A stretch of 64,000 bases of DNA, taken from assembly GCF_026988555.1 (NCBI RefSeq), contig NZ_JALSLB010000015.1, positions 1-64,000 of the forward strand, read 5' to 3'. Position 1 is the first letter of the stretch. Every line of letters starts with the position of its first letter. The notes under the pieces are model-generated. The model was not told where the DNA came from. It made no database searches and worked only from the letters and a program-made list of their open reading frames with translations. The stretch is from Thermococcus sp. (GTDB lineage: Archaea > Methanobacteriota_B > Thermococci > Thermococcales > Thermococcaceae). Shown here in pieces: positions 5,204 through 10,670 of this stretch. The translations under genes and the position numbers were made by a program.

Positions 5204-6484
5204 TCAGTCTCTCCTTCTCCTCTTTTTACCCCAGGATATCTTTGCCGTCAGCACTTTTTCGCTGGAAAATATCCTTGCCGCGAAGTAGAGGGTTACTAGG
5301 GACAGGGCGCTTAGGTATGCGATGCTGAGTGTCATGGGACCATAGCTCCCGGAGAGGGCGTACCTGTAGGCCAGTATTGGGTGGGTAAACGGATCCGCTA
5401 GGAGACCGTAGTGCGCCAGGGCTGGTAGCTCATTGATGTCTGTGAACATCAGGATAAATGCCGGGAACGCGAGCGGCAGTATGACCGAGCTCACGACCGT
5501 ATTTGCGCTCTGGACATCCTCCGCAAACACCGCCAGTATCATCGCGAGGCTCAGTGCAAAGACTATCGTCAGGAACACCACGAGTGCAAAGAGCAGCATT
5601 CCCATCGGGGTGACACCCAGGCCAAGCTCCTTCAGGGTCACTCCCGTCTCCGTTGTGAATGAGCCGAGGTAGCTTTTAAGACCTATCATGTAAGCCAGAG
5701 CGGCTATCAGGCCCATGATCGCGGTTCCGCTGATTTTTGAGGCCACTATGGTCGTCCTCTTAACTGGAAGGGTCAGGAGGGTTTCAAGGGTCTTGTTCTC
5801 CTTCTCGCTTGCTATGGCTCCTGCCGCCATCTGGGCGGTTATCGTCACCATCAGAAAGACTATGAGGGGAAGGCTGATCGCCTGCGATGTGAGGACGCCC
5901 GAGACGAGCGACGGTGGGGCGTTCACTATATGGTGATTTATGAAGGATCTGCTCTCCGCCCTAACCGGGTGAAGGAGGGCCTCTGGTTGACCGACGTTCA
6001 GGTTTTTGAGCTTCAGCTTTGCTATCTCCTCCGATAGGACGTTTATGACTGCATTTATCCTGGATTCACTGACGCTTTCCCTGACCCCCGTTCCTACGGA
6101 GTGGAAGATTCCGTAGACTTCCACAGTAGCGATCCTGTTGTCCTCGATGCTGACGCTGAAGTTGCGTGGTATGACGACGAGGACGTTCTGTTTTTCCTGG
6201 TAGGCTCGGTTCAGCGCCCCCTGAAGTGAGCTCGCGTTTATCTGTGTGACCGTCACGTTTGGGGCTGCGGTTAGGGCGTTAACCAGCACCCTCCCGTACG
6301 GGCCGTCGTCGAGGCTGACTATGACGACGTGGGTCTCCCCCTGGGCCGTTTCCATTCCGACCTGCATCACCTTTCCCATGGCGGGATATATTATCAGTGG
6401 TACTATTATAAGGCCGAAGAGCAGTTTCTTGTCCCTTATGAGGCTCAGTATCTCCTTCCTCGCAAGCACCCAGAAATCGCTCAT
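5204..6484 (-). CDS. ABC-2 type transporter permease (NatB-like)
   Basis: A 426-residue membrane subunit: one N-terminal segment (about 20-40), a large external domain of roughly 160 residues, then five to six C-terminal membrane segments including the ASEKENKTLETLLTLPVKR coupling region that marks NatB/ABC-2 exporters. It ends in a very basic KKRRRRD tail. The gene overlaps the upstream ATPase gene by 4 bp (ATGA), so the two are co-translated. It is the last gene of the nine-gene DUF2178 operon. Relatives export Na+, drugs or peptides; nothing here fixes the substrate. Confidence 0.88.
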   Translation of the reverse strand: MSDFWVLARKEILSLIRDKKLLFGLIIVPLIIYPAMGKVMQVGMETAQGETHVVIVSLDDGPYGRVLVNALTAAPNVTVTQINASSLQGALNRAYQEKQNVLVVIPRNFSVSIEDNRIATVEVYGIFHSVGTGVRESVSESRINAVINVLSEEIAKLKLKNLNVGQPEALLHPVRAESRSFINHHIVNAPPSLVSGVLTSQAISLPLIVFLMVTITAQMAAGAIASEKENKTLETLLTLPVKRTTIVASKISGTAIMGLIAALAYMIGLKSYLGSFTTETGVTLKELGLGVTPMGMLLFALVVFLTIVFALSLAMILAVFAEDVQSANTVVSSVILPLAFPAFILMFTDINELPALAHYGLLADPFTHPILAYRYALSGSYGPMTLSIAYLSALSLVTLYFAARIFSSEKVLTAKISWGKKRRRRD

Positions 6485-7224
6485 GATCCCTCACCATCCA
6501 CCGGTTCAACCGCCCTCATAAAGACCTCCTCGAGGTTCTCGGCACCATAGCGCTCCTTCAGCTCCTCCGGGGTCCCTATCTCGATGATCTTTCCCCTGTT
6601 TATCAGGGCAACGCGGTCACAGAGGAACTCGACCTCAAGCATGTTGTGGCTGGAGACCAGAAAGGTCGTTCCCTCCTCCCTGGCGAAGCGTTTTATTGTC
6701 TTCCTGATCGTGTAAGCGTTGACTATATCCAGCCCGCTCGCCGGTTCGTCGAGTATCGCCAGCCCTGGCATCACCATCAGCGCCCTTGCCAGGAGCAGTT
6801 TTCGGGTCATACCCTTAGAGTAGGTGGCCACTTTGTCGTTCAGTCTGTTTCCCAGGTTGGAAATTTTCTTTCCGAGCTCCACCATTCCTGTCGCCTTTTC
6901 ATCATCTTTGGCGTACAGCCTCGCCATGAGTCGGAGATACTCGATCCCCGTGAGGTTCTTGTAGGCACCGGCCTCCTCCGGAAGGTAGCTTATTAGGGCC
7001 CGCACCTTCTCGGCTTCCCTGACCACATCGTGCCCGAACACCTCGGCCCTTCCCCCGGTCGGCTTCAGCAGAGTTGCCAGTATCTTCAGGGTGGTGCTCT
7101 TGCCCGCCCCGTTCGGCCCGATGAGGCCGAATATCTCACCCTCGTTGATGGAGAAGCTTATCCCCTTGAGGGCCTTCACCTTTCCGTAGTCCTTCTCCAG
7201 GTTCAGAACTTCAACCATGGGCAT
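6481..7224 (-). CDS. ABC transporter ATP-binding protein (NatA-like)
   Basis: A 247-residue ATPase with Walker A GPNGAGKST, Q-loop region, the degenerate signature TYSKGMTRKL, Walker B LAILDEPASGLD and H-switch VSSHNM. It pairs with the ABC-2 permease that follows and overlaps it by 4 bp. The ATG at 7224 is chosen because GGGAGGG lies six bases before it; the open frame runs on to 7281, but that part lies inside the upstream gene. The overlap with the preceding membrane-protein gene implies translational coupling within the operon. Confidence 0.9.
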   Translation of the reverse strand: MPMVEVLNLEKDYGKVKALKGISFSINEGEIFGLIGPNGAGKSTTLKILATLLKPTGGRAEVFGHDVVREAEKVRALISYLPEEAGAYKNLTGIEYLRLMARLYAKDDEKATGMVELGKKISNLGNRLNDKVATYSKGMTRKLLLARALMVMPGLAILDEPASGLDIVNAYTIRKTIKRFAREEGTTFLVSSHNMLEVEFLCDRVALINRGKIIEIGTPEELKERYGAENLEEVFMRAVEPVDGEGS

Positions 7225-7576
7225 GTTTGGCCCTCCCAACTTTGTAGAGTACGAGACCAAGGATTGATAATGTTGCCCCAAAAACGAAGAGGCTCAGGAT
7301 CGATGAATAACCACTTATGATGGCAATGCCAAGGCCGCTCGAAAGGCCCAGCCAGCCGTTTAATTCGTGGTCGTTTTTAAAGCCATGGCCGAGCCCCAGG
7401 AGCAGCGCCCCAACAGCGACCAGCCCGAGCTCAATGATGAAGATGGGCGTGTTTATCCCCGTATAGACCTCTCCACTCGGCACTTTCATGCAGGCCAGCC
7501 GTTCAATGGGCGGCTCTGCTATGCCTAGGCTTATGCCGAGGAGATAAACCATCAGCCCGGCCAATTTCTTACTCAT
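7211..7576 (-). CDS. Small membrane protein of unknown function
   Basis: 121 residues with about four hydrophobic segments (near 6-20, 45-62, 74-90 and 93-110) and short loops. The loop after the first segment carries [12 protein letters not shown] do not recognise a family. The start at 7576 overlaps the stop of the Xre regulator gene (GATGAGTAA), with GGGTGATAGGG just before it; the end overlaps the ATPase gene. Its place between a regulator and an ABC exporter suggests an accessory or sensing role, but that is inference only. Confidence 0.7.
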
Positions 7577-7775
7577 CCCTATCACCCTCGTAAAGGAATA
7601 CGTCCTCGATTTTAACGCCGAAAAAGCGCGCTATCCTAAAAGCTAATCTCAGCGATGGGTCGTATTTACCCTTCTCAATCGCTATCACCGTCTGCCTCGT
7701 TACCCCTAGGGCCTTCGCCAGTTCCTCCTGGGTTAAGCCTTTGGCCTCCCTTAGCTCTCGCAGGCGATTTTTCAT
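7569..7775 (-). CDS. Small Xre-family helix-turn-helix regulator
   Basis: A 68-residue protein that is almost only a Cro/C1-type DNA-binding domain: [15 protein letters not shown], then [20 protein letters not shown], typical of the short YvaO/YgzD-type regulators often found with membrane proteins. It lacks any sensor domain, so a signal would have to come from another protein. The start is ATG 7775, with GGGAGGATG nearby that also encodes the end of the preceding DUF2178 gene. It lies sixth in the operon and is the obvious candidate to bind the twin palindromes at 9817-9848. Confidence 0.9.
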
Positions 7776-7779
7776 AGGC

Positions 7780-8079
7780 TCACATCCTCCCGGCATAATA
7801 GGCTCTGAAGATGAGGTTGCCTAGGAATATGGTAGCGAATATCAGGACGGCGAGGTTGGTGCACCGCTCGTCCCTGAGAACCAGCCACGAGTAGTAGAGC
7901 GCCGCCACTGTGACGAGAAGGACGAGCTCCAGGGTTCTCGCCGCTGAGAGTTTGGCTATCTCGAAGGCCCTCTCGTCTGGGGGAAGACCGATATCCCTCA
8001 CTATCGTCCGGGTCATGAAATGGCCCAGGAGTCCGCCTCCAACAATGGCAACCAACGAGACTAAGATGAGTTCGTTCAT
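7780..8079 (-). CDS. DUF2178-type membrane protein, fifth of five tandem paralogues
   Basis: 99 residues, about three to four hydrophobic segments. It shares with the four upstream genes a central [20 protein letters not shown] segment (the DER...I...SA motif) and a C-terminal YYAGRM tail. It is the shortest copy and seems to lack part of the first membrane hairpin. The stop TGA of the upstream paralogue directly abuts its ATG, and the sequence coding for that paralogue's RRRM tail provides its AGGAGG ribosome binding site. Function unknown. Confidence 0.75.
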
Positions 8080-8691
8080 TCACATCCTCCTCCTGTAGTA
8101 GATCCCAGCCCCGATCATCGAGAGGCTCCAAGTTAACATGAATAAAATGGAGAGCGTTTCAGAGCTCGGGTTCCACAGGTGGAAGAGGCTCACCAACAGA
8201 ACTATTGAGGCAACGAACGTCATGTTCCTGCCGACCATTGCCCAGGACTTGAGCTCTATCAGCTCAACCCTCTCATCCGTGAGGGGTTCCTCTGGAGTTA
8301 ATGTGGCCCTTTTTACCCGGAGGATAAGCGCCCAAGACACCACTACAACCAGGACAAGAAGCGCGCCGGGAGTTCTTTTCAGATACCCCGTCATGATGAA
8401 AGCCCCTATAGCCGAGGTTGTTCCCAGTAGAATTCCCAGGGACAACAGTTGCAGGATCACCTCTCTTTTCTCGACCATCTCTGAGCCGGTAATCGTCAGA
8501 AGTCCCCACCCACCGATGAACGCTATCCCAAAGACGAGGACGCCAACGAGGAGCGGAAACGTCCACTCCGGAGGGTTGGAGCTTACCACCATCGTTCCGC
8601 CACTTGCTTCATAAAGCCAGGCAAGATAAAGGACATACACCAGGGCAAAGACAAGTAGAAGACCGAGCACGTTTCGCTTCCAGCGCTCCAT
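8080..8691 (-). CDS. DUF2178-type membrane protein, enlarged fourth paralogue
   Basis: 203 residues, nearly twice the size of its neighbours. The C-terminal 90 residues contain the shared LTDERVELIELKSWAM segment flanked by membrane helices and end in YYRRRM like the others. The N-terminal 110 residues add about three more hydrophobic segments and look like a separate membrane domain (WGLLTITGSEM between helices). It starts directly after the TGA of the previous gene. I see no catalytic motif. Confidence 0.72.
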   Translation of the reverse strand: MERWKRNVLGLLLVFALVYVLYLAWLYEASGGTMVVSSNPPEWTFPLLVGVLVFGIAFIGGWGLLTITGSEMVEKREVILQLLSLGILLGTTSAIGAFIMTGYLKRTPGALLVLVVVVSWALILRVKRATLTPEEPLTDERVELIELKSWAMVGRNMTFVASIVLLVSLFHLWNPSSETLSILFMLTWSLSMIGAGIYYRRRM

Positions 8692-9060
8692 TCACATCAC
8701 CCGCTCATAATGCGCCTTCAGGACTGCCGCGGCCAGGACACCCGCTAACATCGACAACAGGAGCCACTTTGAAAGCAGAACCACAGTTTCATAGTCATGG
8801 CCAGCGAGCCAGATCAGTTCGTAGCCAAGAACGACGAAACCGACTCCCATGCCTTGGTAAAAACTCTTCATGGTTATCAGCTCGGTCCTTTCGTCTCTGA
8901 GGGGCCCTACTTTCTTCTCGTAGGTCTTCGCAAGGACCCAGGTTCCGAGCCAGACGAGGGTGAAGAAGAACCAGCTTAGGTATGTGCTGGTTCGCGAGTA
9001 ATAACTCACCAGGAAAATTGTCGTGAACAGAAAGACGAAGTGAATGACCCCGAACCTCAC
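8692..9060 (-). CDS. DUF2178-type membrane protein, third paralogue
   Basis: 122 residues with two N-terminal hydrophobic segments, the cytoplasmic-looking loop LRDERTELITMKSFYQG, then two more segments and the tail HYERVM. The start is GTG (9058-9060), placed immediately after the TGA stop of the upstream copy; the upstream copy's final CGG GTG ATG codons give the ribosome binding site. Family function is unknown. Its four helices, central charged loop and operon position are the only clues. Confidence 0.75.
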   Translation of the reverse strand: MRFGVIHFVFLFTTIFLVSYYSRTSTYLSWFFFTLVWLGTWVLAKTYEKKVGPLRDERTELITMKSFYQGMGVGFVVLGYELIWLAGHDYETVVLLSKWLLLSMLAGVLAAAVLKAHYERVM

Positions 9061-9423
9061 TCACATCACCCGCTTGTAATGATAGTGAGAAATCAGGGGC
9101 ACGGCCGCACCAAGGGCGAGGGGAATTATAAGCTTCGTAGCCACCTCGACGTTCTCCTTGTTGTACTCCCATAGATATTCAGCGAAGAGGAAAAAGCTCA
9201 TCACAGCATAGCCGTTCCTCGCGCTCTTCGCACTTATGAGCCTGCTCCTCTCATCCTCAATCCTCTCAACCTTTGAGTCGTAGTACCAAGCCAGCAGATA
9301 GCTTAGCAAAAAGCCCGCGACAAAAATTCCCACAGCCAGAAGGGCTTTTCCGGACTTTGTTGAGTAAGCCAGCCCGATTATCATGCCCGTGATGAGAATC
9401 CCGAGCAGGCCTTCGTACTTCAT
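9061..9423 (-). CDS. DUF2178-type membrane protein, second paralogue
   Basis: 120 residues, four hydrophobic segments, with IEDERSRLISAKSARNG between segments two and three and the tail HYHYKRVM. It begins with ATG directly at the stop of the first operon gene. The DER...S/ISAKSA motif is the best-conserved segment of DUF2178 (a family described only as a predicted membrane protein), and this copy matches it most closely among the five. Confidence 0.78.
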   Translation of the reverse strand: MKYEGLLGILITGMIIGLAYSTKSGKALLAVGIFVAGFLLSYLLAWYYDSKVERIEDERSRLISAKSARNGYAVMSFFLFAEYLWEYNKENVEVATKLIIPLALGAAVPLISHYHYKRVM

Positions 9424-9816
9424 TCACATCACCCTCAAGTAGTAGTGTTTCAGCGCGACCTTTAGAACCGAGACGAGAACCATCAGGGCAAGGGAGAGGT
9501 AGTAGGCGCTCCTCAGCTCCGGGCAGCTCTGGGAAAGTACCGCCAGACCCACCACGCTGAAAGCGAGGACGAGCACCAAAACCTGAAGCGTCCTTCTTGA
9601 TGCCATCTCCTCAATGCGGAGCGTTCTCTCATCGTTTATAATCTCACCGCGCCTCTTAACCCACTCGGAATATAAGAAGGTCGTGGCAATTGCCCCAGCC
9701 AGAACCCCAAAGGCGAGTGCGGCGTTTCCCATCCAGAGGGCCACGGCCAACAGCGATGCGGTCGTGGCCGGAATCGCATATCCAATTGCCTTCCATCCTT
9801 CCACATTCATCACCAT
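9424..9816 (-). CDS. DUF2178-type membrane protein, first gene of the operon
   Basis: 130 residues, four hydrophobic segments, central INDERTLRIEEMASRRTLQ and tail HYYLRVM. ATG codons at 9816 and 9810 are both possible; the first directly abuts the operator (9817). With the TATA box CTTATAAG at 9852-9859, transcription should start near 9830, so the leader is only about 14-20 nt. This gene therefore receives its translation signal differently from the four paralogues behind it, which all use the preceding gene's end as ribosome binding site. Confidence 0.75.
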   Translation of the reverse strand: MVMNVEGWKAIGYAIPATTASLLAVALWMGNAALAFGVLAGAIATTFLYSEWVKRRGEIINDERTLRIEEMASRRTLQVLVLVLAFSVVGLAVLSQSCPELRSAYYLSLALMVLVSVLKVALKHYYLRVM

Positions 9817-9860
9817 GTAAAGTTTCCTTTACGTAAAGCTTCCTTTACATCCTTATAAGC
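9817..9860 (-). promoter_or_regulatory. Promoter of the DUF2178 operon with two abutting palindromic operators
   Basis: Two 16-bp palindromes lie head to tail without a gap: GTAAAGTTTCCTTTAC (9817-9832) and GTAAAGCTTCCTTTAC (9833-9848). Each has perfect 6-bp arms and a 4-bp spacer, and they differ at one spacer base. The TATA box CTTATAAG (9852-9859) lies 3 bp beyond, so both copies cover the predicted transcription start. This is the layout of a repressor with two dimers bound side by side; the operon's own Xre protein is the likely ligand. Confidence 0.8.
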
Positions 9861-9905: not shown

Positions 9906-9993
9906 GCGGGGGTAGCCGAGCCTGGCCAAAGGCGCGGGATTTAGGGTCCCGTCCCGCAGGGGTTCGCGGGTTCGAATCCCGTCCCCCGCACCA
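9906..9993 (+). tRNA. tRNA-Leu (anticodon UAG)
   Basis: A class II tRNA of 88 nt including encoded CCA. The acceptor stem GCGGGGG (9906-9912) pairs with CCCCCGC (9983-9989), followed by discriminator A and CCA. The anticodon stem CGGGA/TCCCG encloses the loop TTTAGGG, giving anticodon TAG (reads CUA). The long variable arm GTCCCGCAGGGG-type and the TTCGAAT T-loop confirm a leucine tRNA. No intron. Confidence 0.95.
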
Positions 9994-10591: not shown

Positions 10592-10670
10592 ATGGTGGGC
10601 CCGCGGGGACTTGAACCCCGGACCTCCACCGTGTGAGGGTGGCGTCATAACCAGTCTAGACCACGGGCCC
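10592..10670 (-). tRNA. tRNA-Val (anticodon CAC)
   Basis: 79 nt including encoded CCA. Read on the minus strand, the acceptor stem GGGCCCG pairs with CGGGCCC, then A and CCA. The anticodon stem CCACC/GGTGG encloses CTCACAC, giving anticodon CAC (reads GUG). The T arm is GGGGTTCAAGTCCCC. A TATA-like CTTTATATT lies at about 10697-10706, 27 bp or more upstream of the 5' end, just beyond the stop of dph5, so the tRNA has its own promoter. Confidence 0.95.

Follow-up and report, generated by a model that had tools for sequence, protein, structure and literature searches.

CylR2 of Enterococcus faecalis is a DNA-binding repressor (PMC3709268), a 66-aa Xre protein with the helix VSRQT, which is accompanied by the small multi-TM partner protein CylR1 (PMC3709268, PMC5454873). 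The locus described here lies in a stretch of 64,000 nucleotides from Thermococcus sp. (contig NZ_JALSLB010000015.1), referred to below as the window, and encodes a regulator that resembles CylR2 in being a small single-domain Xre protein with a similar helix, paired with a small multi-TM protein, whereas CylR2 controls a divergent toxin operon. The likeness extends to the sequence, as this Xre protein, of close to 66 aa, matches CylR2 (1utx) with an E-value of 9.2e-14, and to the gene neighbourhood, as a membrane ORF with a DER motif adjoins Xre in 217 of 255 archaeal and bacterial loci, permuted motifs being far rarer. By analogy, the system may work like a CylR1/CylR2-type regulator; we claim no membership of that type, and CylR1 is likened to the DER proteins by description only.

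Lantibiotic-immunity repressors of the PBSX/Xre type, such as LtnR, are also small Xre proteins, and control their own operons, which contain ABC exporter genes. The Thermococcus xre gene likewise belongs to an operon with ABC exporter genes. Adjacent palindromes bound by dimers of the Cro/CI fold, with about one turn between half-sites, are typical of the tandem operators of the phage 434/lambda type. The phage CI repressors owe their cooperativity to a C-terminal domain, which the 68-aa Thermococcus protein lacks. In the operators of C proteins (C.AhdI, C.Esp1396I), two neighbouring dimer sites are found at an autoregulated promoter, as is predicted for the Thermococcus tandem; C proteins belong with restriction-modification genes, act as activators as well as repressors, and have other operator sequences.

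The operon and its Xre protein

The operon lies on the minus strand and opens with a small DUF2178 membrane protein carrying an NDER motif (9424-9804, Pfam E-value 7.4e-12), whose ORF is also open from 9816, followed by a second DUF2178 membrane protein with an EDER motif (9061-9423, E 2.2e-9). These are the two clear members of the family, and the other small membrane proteins before xre are linked to it only by a DER motif or by a match below the threshold: a protein at 8692-9060, which has no Pfam match and is DUF2178-like by its RDER motif only, a 203-aa protein with a TDER motif and a marginal DUF2178 match (8080-8691), and a 99-aa protein with a PDER motif, whose DUF2178 match (E 7.4e-4) falls just under the cut-off (7780-8079). 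DUF2178 and DUF3796-like proteins may form one superfamily.

The gene at 7569-7775, which the initial annotation had assigned to an Xre protein, does encode a member of the Xre/Cro-CI repressors (HTH_3, E 4.5e-21). Its 68-aa product, with the recognition helix VTRQT, is the proposed ligand of the palindromes described below, and its nearest structural match is 9k3w (E 9.7e-19). Further downstream are a small membrane protein with no family above the cut-off (7211-7585), which as listed overlaps the end of xre slightly and whose true start may be lower, an ABC transporter ATPase (6481-7221), whose nearest curated model is drrA, at a score below that model's cut-off, and an ABC-2 type permease (5204-6484, Pfam ABC2_membrane_3, E 8.6e-34). 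An ABC ATPase homologue is found 3' of xre in 84 of the 84 Thermococcaceae loci with room for one. The analysis ties the unannotated DUF2178/DER membrane proteins to what is probably a regulated exporter module; DUF2178 is mentioned in no paper of the mostly non-subscription literature searched.

The tandem palindrome at the core promoter

Upstream of the first gene, two palindromes of 16 bp, GTAAAGTTTCCTTTAC at 9817-9832 and GTAAAGCTTCCTTTAC at 9833-9848, abut one another, each an exact match to GTAAAG-N4-CTTTAC, and a single base, located in the N4 spacer, distinguishes the two copies. The initial annotation had described just this arrangement, with perfect arms, a one-base difference and a distance of 3 bp from the TATA box, and we find it to be accurate in each detail. 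An abutting pair of perfect 6+4+6 palindromes of any sequence occurs once in the window, compared with 0.015 per dinucleotide-shuffled window, which rules out a chance palindrome as the origin and agrees with the earlier judgement that such arms are improbable by chance. In the whole 1.97-Mb genome, exact matches to GTAAAG-N4-CTTTAC are confined to this pair, with none for the reversed-pattern control. The symmetry of the element continues into its flanks, with AT at both ends.

Along the gene strand, the TATA box CTTATAAG (9859-9852) is followed by GAT, GTAAAGGAAGCTTTAC, GTAAAGGAAACTTTAC and ATGGTGATGAATGTGGAA, and a purine-rich BRE-like GGGGAAAGG is present just 5' of the TATA box. With a distance of about 26 bp assumed between the TATA centre and the start site, transcription would begin near 9829, within the second unit. 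The TATA-proximal unit 1 (9833-9848, GTAAAGGAAGCTTTAC), which is conserved in Thermococcaceae, would then lie between the TATA box and the start, and the abutting unit 2 (9817-9832, GTAAAGGAAACTTTAC) would overlap the start itself. The GTG at 9804 is the likely start codon of the first gene and comes after GGTGAT (9809-9814, minus strand), a putative Shine-Dalgarno sequence, as judged by the GGTGATGTGA-ATG junctions that separate the downstream genes. A tRNA-Leu gene (9906-9993, plus strand) and a tRNA-Val gene (10593-10670, minus strand) are found upstream of the operon promoter.

In our view, the 32-bp element very probably serves the Xre protein as its cognate autoregulatory operator, through which Xre would repress the membrane-protein/ABC-exporter operon, xre included, by promoter occlusion. 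One Xre dimer would bind each GTAAAG-N4-CTTTAC unit; at a period of 16 bp, or about 1.5 turns, the two dimers would sit on roughly opposite faces, covering the DNA from just past the TATA box to beyond the start and blocking TFB or RNA polymerase, with repression of the exporter operon and of the regulator's own gene as the expected outcome. Purely as an analogy with the CylR1/CylR2 pair, we propose that the signal releasing Xre would be likely to enter through the DER-motif membrane proteins. Three features expected of an autoregulatory operator are found here, namely palindromes within the core promoter of the operon that encodes Xre, their conservation at orthologous promoters and loss together with the regulator, and co-variation of the half-site with the recognition helix. 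The operator of a small repressor is as such ordinary; the conservation across domains, the helix/half-site code and the switch from 21 to 16 bp, all described below, are more than routine.

Conservation in Thermococcaceae and occurrence in other lineages

In 94 Thermococcaceae genomes, the motif is present in 81 and an Xre orthologue (E below 1e-28) in 86. Absence of the motif from orthologous promoters, named in the initial annotation as the result that would count against an operator, was looked for; the tandem (32 bp, at most 2 mismatches in the 24 fixed positions) is found 5' of the Xre operon in 78 of the 86 loci, 68 of them exact. The strict tandem is not always needed, since two species keep one unit (loci L087 and L126, 2/86) and in genome G009 (L108, 1/86) Xre is retained alongside a degenerate first unit; the remaining 5/86 loci begin inside the operon, cut by contig ends. 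The arm columns of the alignment hold about 1.7-2.0 bits, compared with 0.0-0.5 in most flank columns away from TATA, and the spacer GAAA of unit 2 is nearly invariant across the family. The TATA box and A-A at -15/-14 are also conserved, and a TATA-like hexamer begins 11 nt 5' of the tandem in 57 of the 78 loci. Between 85 and 2073 bp separate the tandem from xre; in one congeneric relative, a unit is right next to the gene, at 85 bp. The first gene of the operon varies between species and the tandem is constant. Part of this conservation is common descent of one locus.

The tandem was not found in the Xre-less Thermococcaceae genomes G006, G035, G046, G052, G056, G083 and G088. In G085, for which no Xre orthologue was found, a tandem lies 350 bp from a contig end and is oriented off the contig. 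A third genomic site occurs in all six genomes of genus g5 that have Xre, and in the four examined (L156, L157, L159, L161) a unit stands alone at the promoter of a gene for an ABC-2 permease-like protein. The third sites of two genomes are probably chance matches: the one in G023 follows closely on a gene end and has no TATA, and the one in G063 lies within a coding frame. G084 (L154) has two full tandems about 900 bp apart, the second preceding another DER/DUF2178-type gene; the operon seems to be split in two there, each part with a complete 32-bp element of its own.

The abutting 16-bp tandem might be thought unique to Thermococcaceae, which is wrong, as it is present in Bacilli and in some Halobacteriota. 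When 251 Bacilli genomes were scanned for the DNA pattern (up to 2 mismatches, no protein used), 25 contained it, with 0 for the reversed-pattern control. Of the 25 loci examined, 24 encode an Xre protein of the same family near the tandem, its gene lying downstream by 43-105 bp in most and by about 440 bp in two. At up to 3 mismatches, 9 of 295 Halobacteriota genomes are positive, 8 of them near an Xre of the same family. Nothing else in the data speaks as strongly for recognition of GTAAAG-N4-CTTTAC by this type of Xre as this linkage, since no protein entered the search. Since operators can be shared, and Xre binding here is predicted, the element might instead bind another, global regulator, its link to Xre being incidental. 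We regard this as very improbable, given that the element is found at essentially one locus per genome, together with Xre and absent with it, that it stands beside Xre genes in both Bacilli and Halobacteriota, and that its half-sites track the Xre recognition helix. The earlier reading of the pair as a candidate operator of the operon-encoded Xre thus gains strong support: the pair is conserved and co-occurs with Xre, it is linked to xre in both domains, and half-site and helix co-vary.

In several Bacilli loci a -35 TTGACA adjoins the tandem on its 5' side and unit 1 contains a -10-like TATACT; the tandem thus overlaps the core promoter in these bacteria too. Two Bacilli loci have three abutting units. 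In L299, L300, L306, L313, L316 and L323, also from Bacilli, an extra GTAAAG-N4-CTTGAC unit containing the -35 TTGACA lies about 28-29 bp 5' of the tandem. Inverted repeats close to a start codon can fold, and the element might act as RNA, in the form of a 5' leader hairpin controlling translation or stability; this is scarcely credible, as unit 1 is placed 5' of the inferred start, and would hence be untranscribed, yet is conserved as much as unit 2, and as TATACT falls inside that same unit in Bacilli. The position within the core promoter fits repression, activation by a second mode being the less probable outcome. Paired sites do permit two occupancy states, and C.AhdI, whose structure is solved, is among the matches of the Xre protein as a distant sequence relative, so the protein could be conceived as an activator acting via the tandem, or as an activator/repressor by occupancy, in the manner of restriction-modification C proteins with paired operators. 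Both units, however, are downstream of the TATA box in archaea or of the -35 in bacteria, in positions that would occlude the polymerase, which makes an activating role improbable, and repression by promoter occlusion is the reading we retain.

Recognition helix, half-sites and unit spacing

The sequence of the half-site co-varies with the Xre recognition helix. T/S and Q occupy positions 26 and 28 in 134/134 proteins of the groups with GTAAAG-type sites, and R and E do so in 55/55 proteins of the GTTA group, the relatives with the helix VRRET, instead of V(T/S)RQT, having units of the form GTTA-N8-TAAC. Four Thermococcaceae genomes contain both Xre types, each type with its own, different operator. 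From these data an operator, together with orthogonal variants of its sequence, can be predicted for a repressor family that is very common, spans both prokaryotic domains and has received little study; no paper of the mostly non-subscription literature searched prints the operator strings.

The spacing of 16 bp is found in Thermococcaceae, Bacilli and some Halobacteriota loci. Relatives of the VRRET type normally have their units 21 bp apart, at a distance of two turns and on one face of the helix. A rule of 21 bp was first noticed on part of the distant same-class loci and paralogues, 20 of 21 of which have units 21 or 42 bp apart (0.005-0.07 per locus in shuffles), and 80 fresh archaeal and bacterial loci yield 38 pairs at exactly 21 bp and 0 at 16, with 0.15 expected. 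GTAAAG-like half-sites at 21 bp occur in the archaea whose Xre is closest to that of Thermococcaceae, namely the sister family f2 (Xre about 69% identical) and Archaeoglobales and neighbours (74-77% identical); both f2 and Archaeoglobi have a 5-bp spacer between the two 16-bp units. Family f3 of the class (L170-L178 except L175) has two GTAATATATTTTTTAC-like units 42 bp apart, which flank the BRE/TATA box.

This spacer bears on which palindrome is read. The inner half-sites of the 32-mer form a further perfect palindrome of 12 bp, CTTTAC-GTAAAG (CTTTACGTAAAG), which could be the true dimer site, with the outer half-sites as auxiliary contacts. We consider this quite improbable, as the 5-bp spacer in the sister family and Archaeoglobi destroys the central palindrome and each unit persists, and as the solo sites of the g5 genomes are GTAAAG-N4-CTTTAC.

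In a protein tree, which is short and weakly resolved, Thermococcaceae (100/99) lie inside a clade (100/98) that unites them with these 21-bp relatives and leaves out the 16-bp Bacilli; the Halobacteriota '21' group of this tree includes loci with no detected pair, the nearest (L263, L270-L274) showing 21 bp. Because Thermococcaceae are nested among 21-bp relatives, the spacing most likely changed on their branch, from two turns with the dimers on one face to 1.5 turns with the dimers on opposite faces. The different faces proposed in the initial annotation do follow from the 16-bp period (about 1.5 turns), but this geometry appears to be derived, the nearest archaeal relatives having 21 bp. 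The locus would thus offer a natural experiment in which dimer-dimer geometry switches by half a helical turn.

Residue 13 of Xre (window 7737-7739) is Gly in 85/86 Thermococcaceae and in 22/33 other 16-bp proteins, compared with 0/15 and 6/55 in the 21-bp groups, and is Asn or Asp in most proteins with the 21-bp spacing. It is a possible determinant of dimer geometry, confounded by phylogeny.

Taking these patterns together, we lean, if only slightly, towards a single widespread family of minimal Xre proteins (about 65 aa), usually encoded beside a DER-motif membrane protein and sharing one operator code in bacteria and archaea. This code would consist of 16-bp palindromes, with the half-site set by two helix residues (T/S..Q for GTAAAG, R..E for GTTAGA) and a spacing of 16, 21 or 42 bp only; Thermococcaceae would have lost the 5-bp spacer, passing from same-face 21 bp to opposite-face 16 bp, and would then have frozen the array. 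The VRRET-type loci (L183-L262, L148-L151, L165-L169 and L175), from archaea and bacteria, have GTTA-N8-TAAC arrays of 21-bp period, often with three units, directly after the TATA box or the -35.
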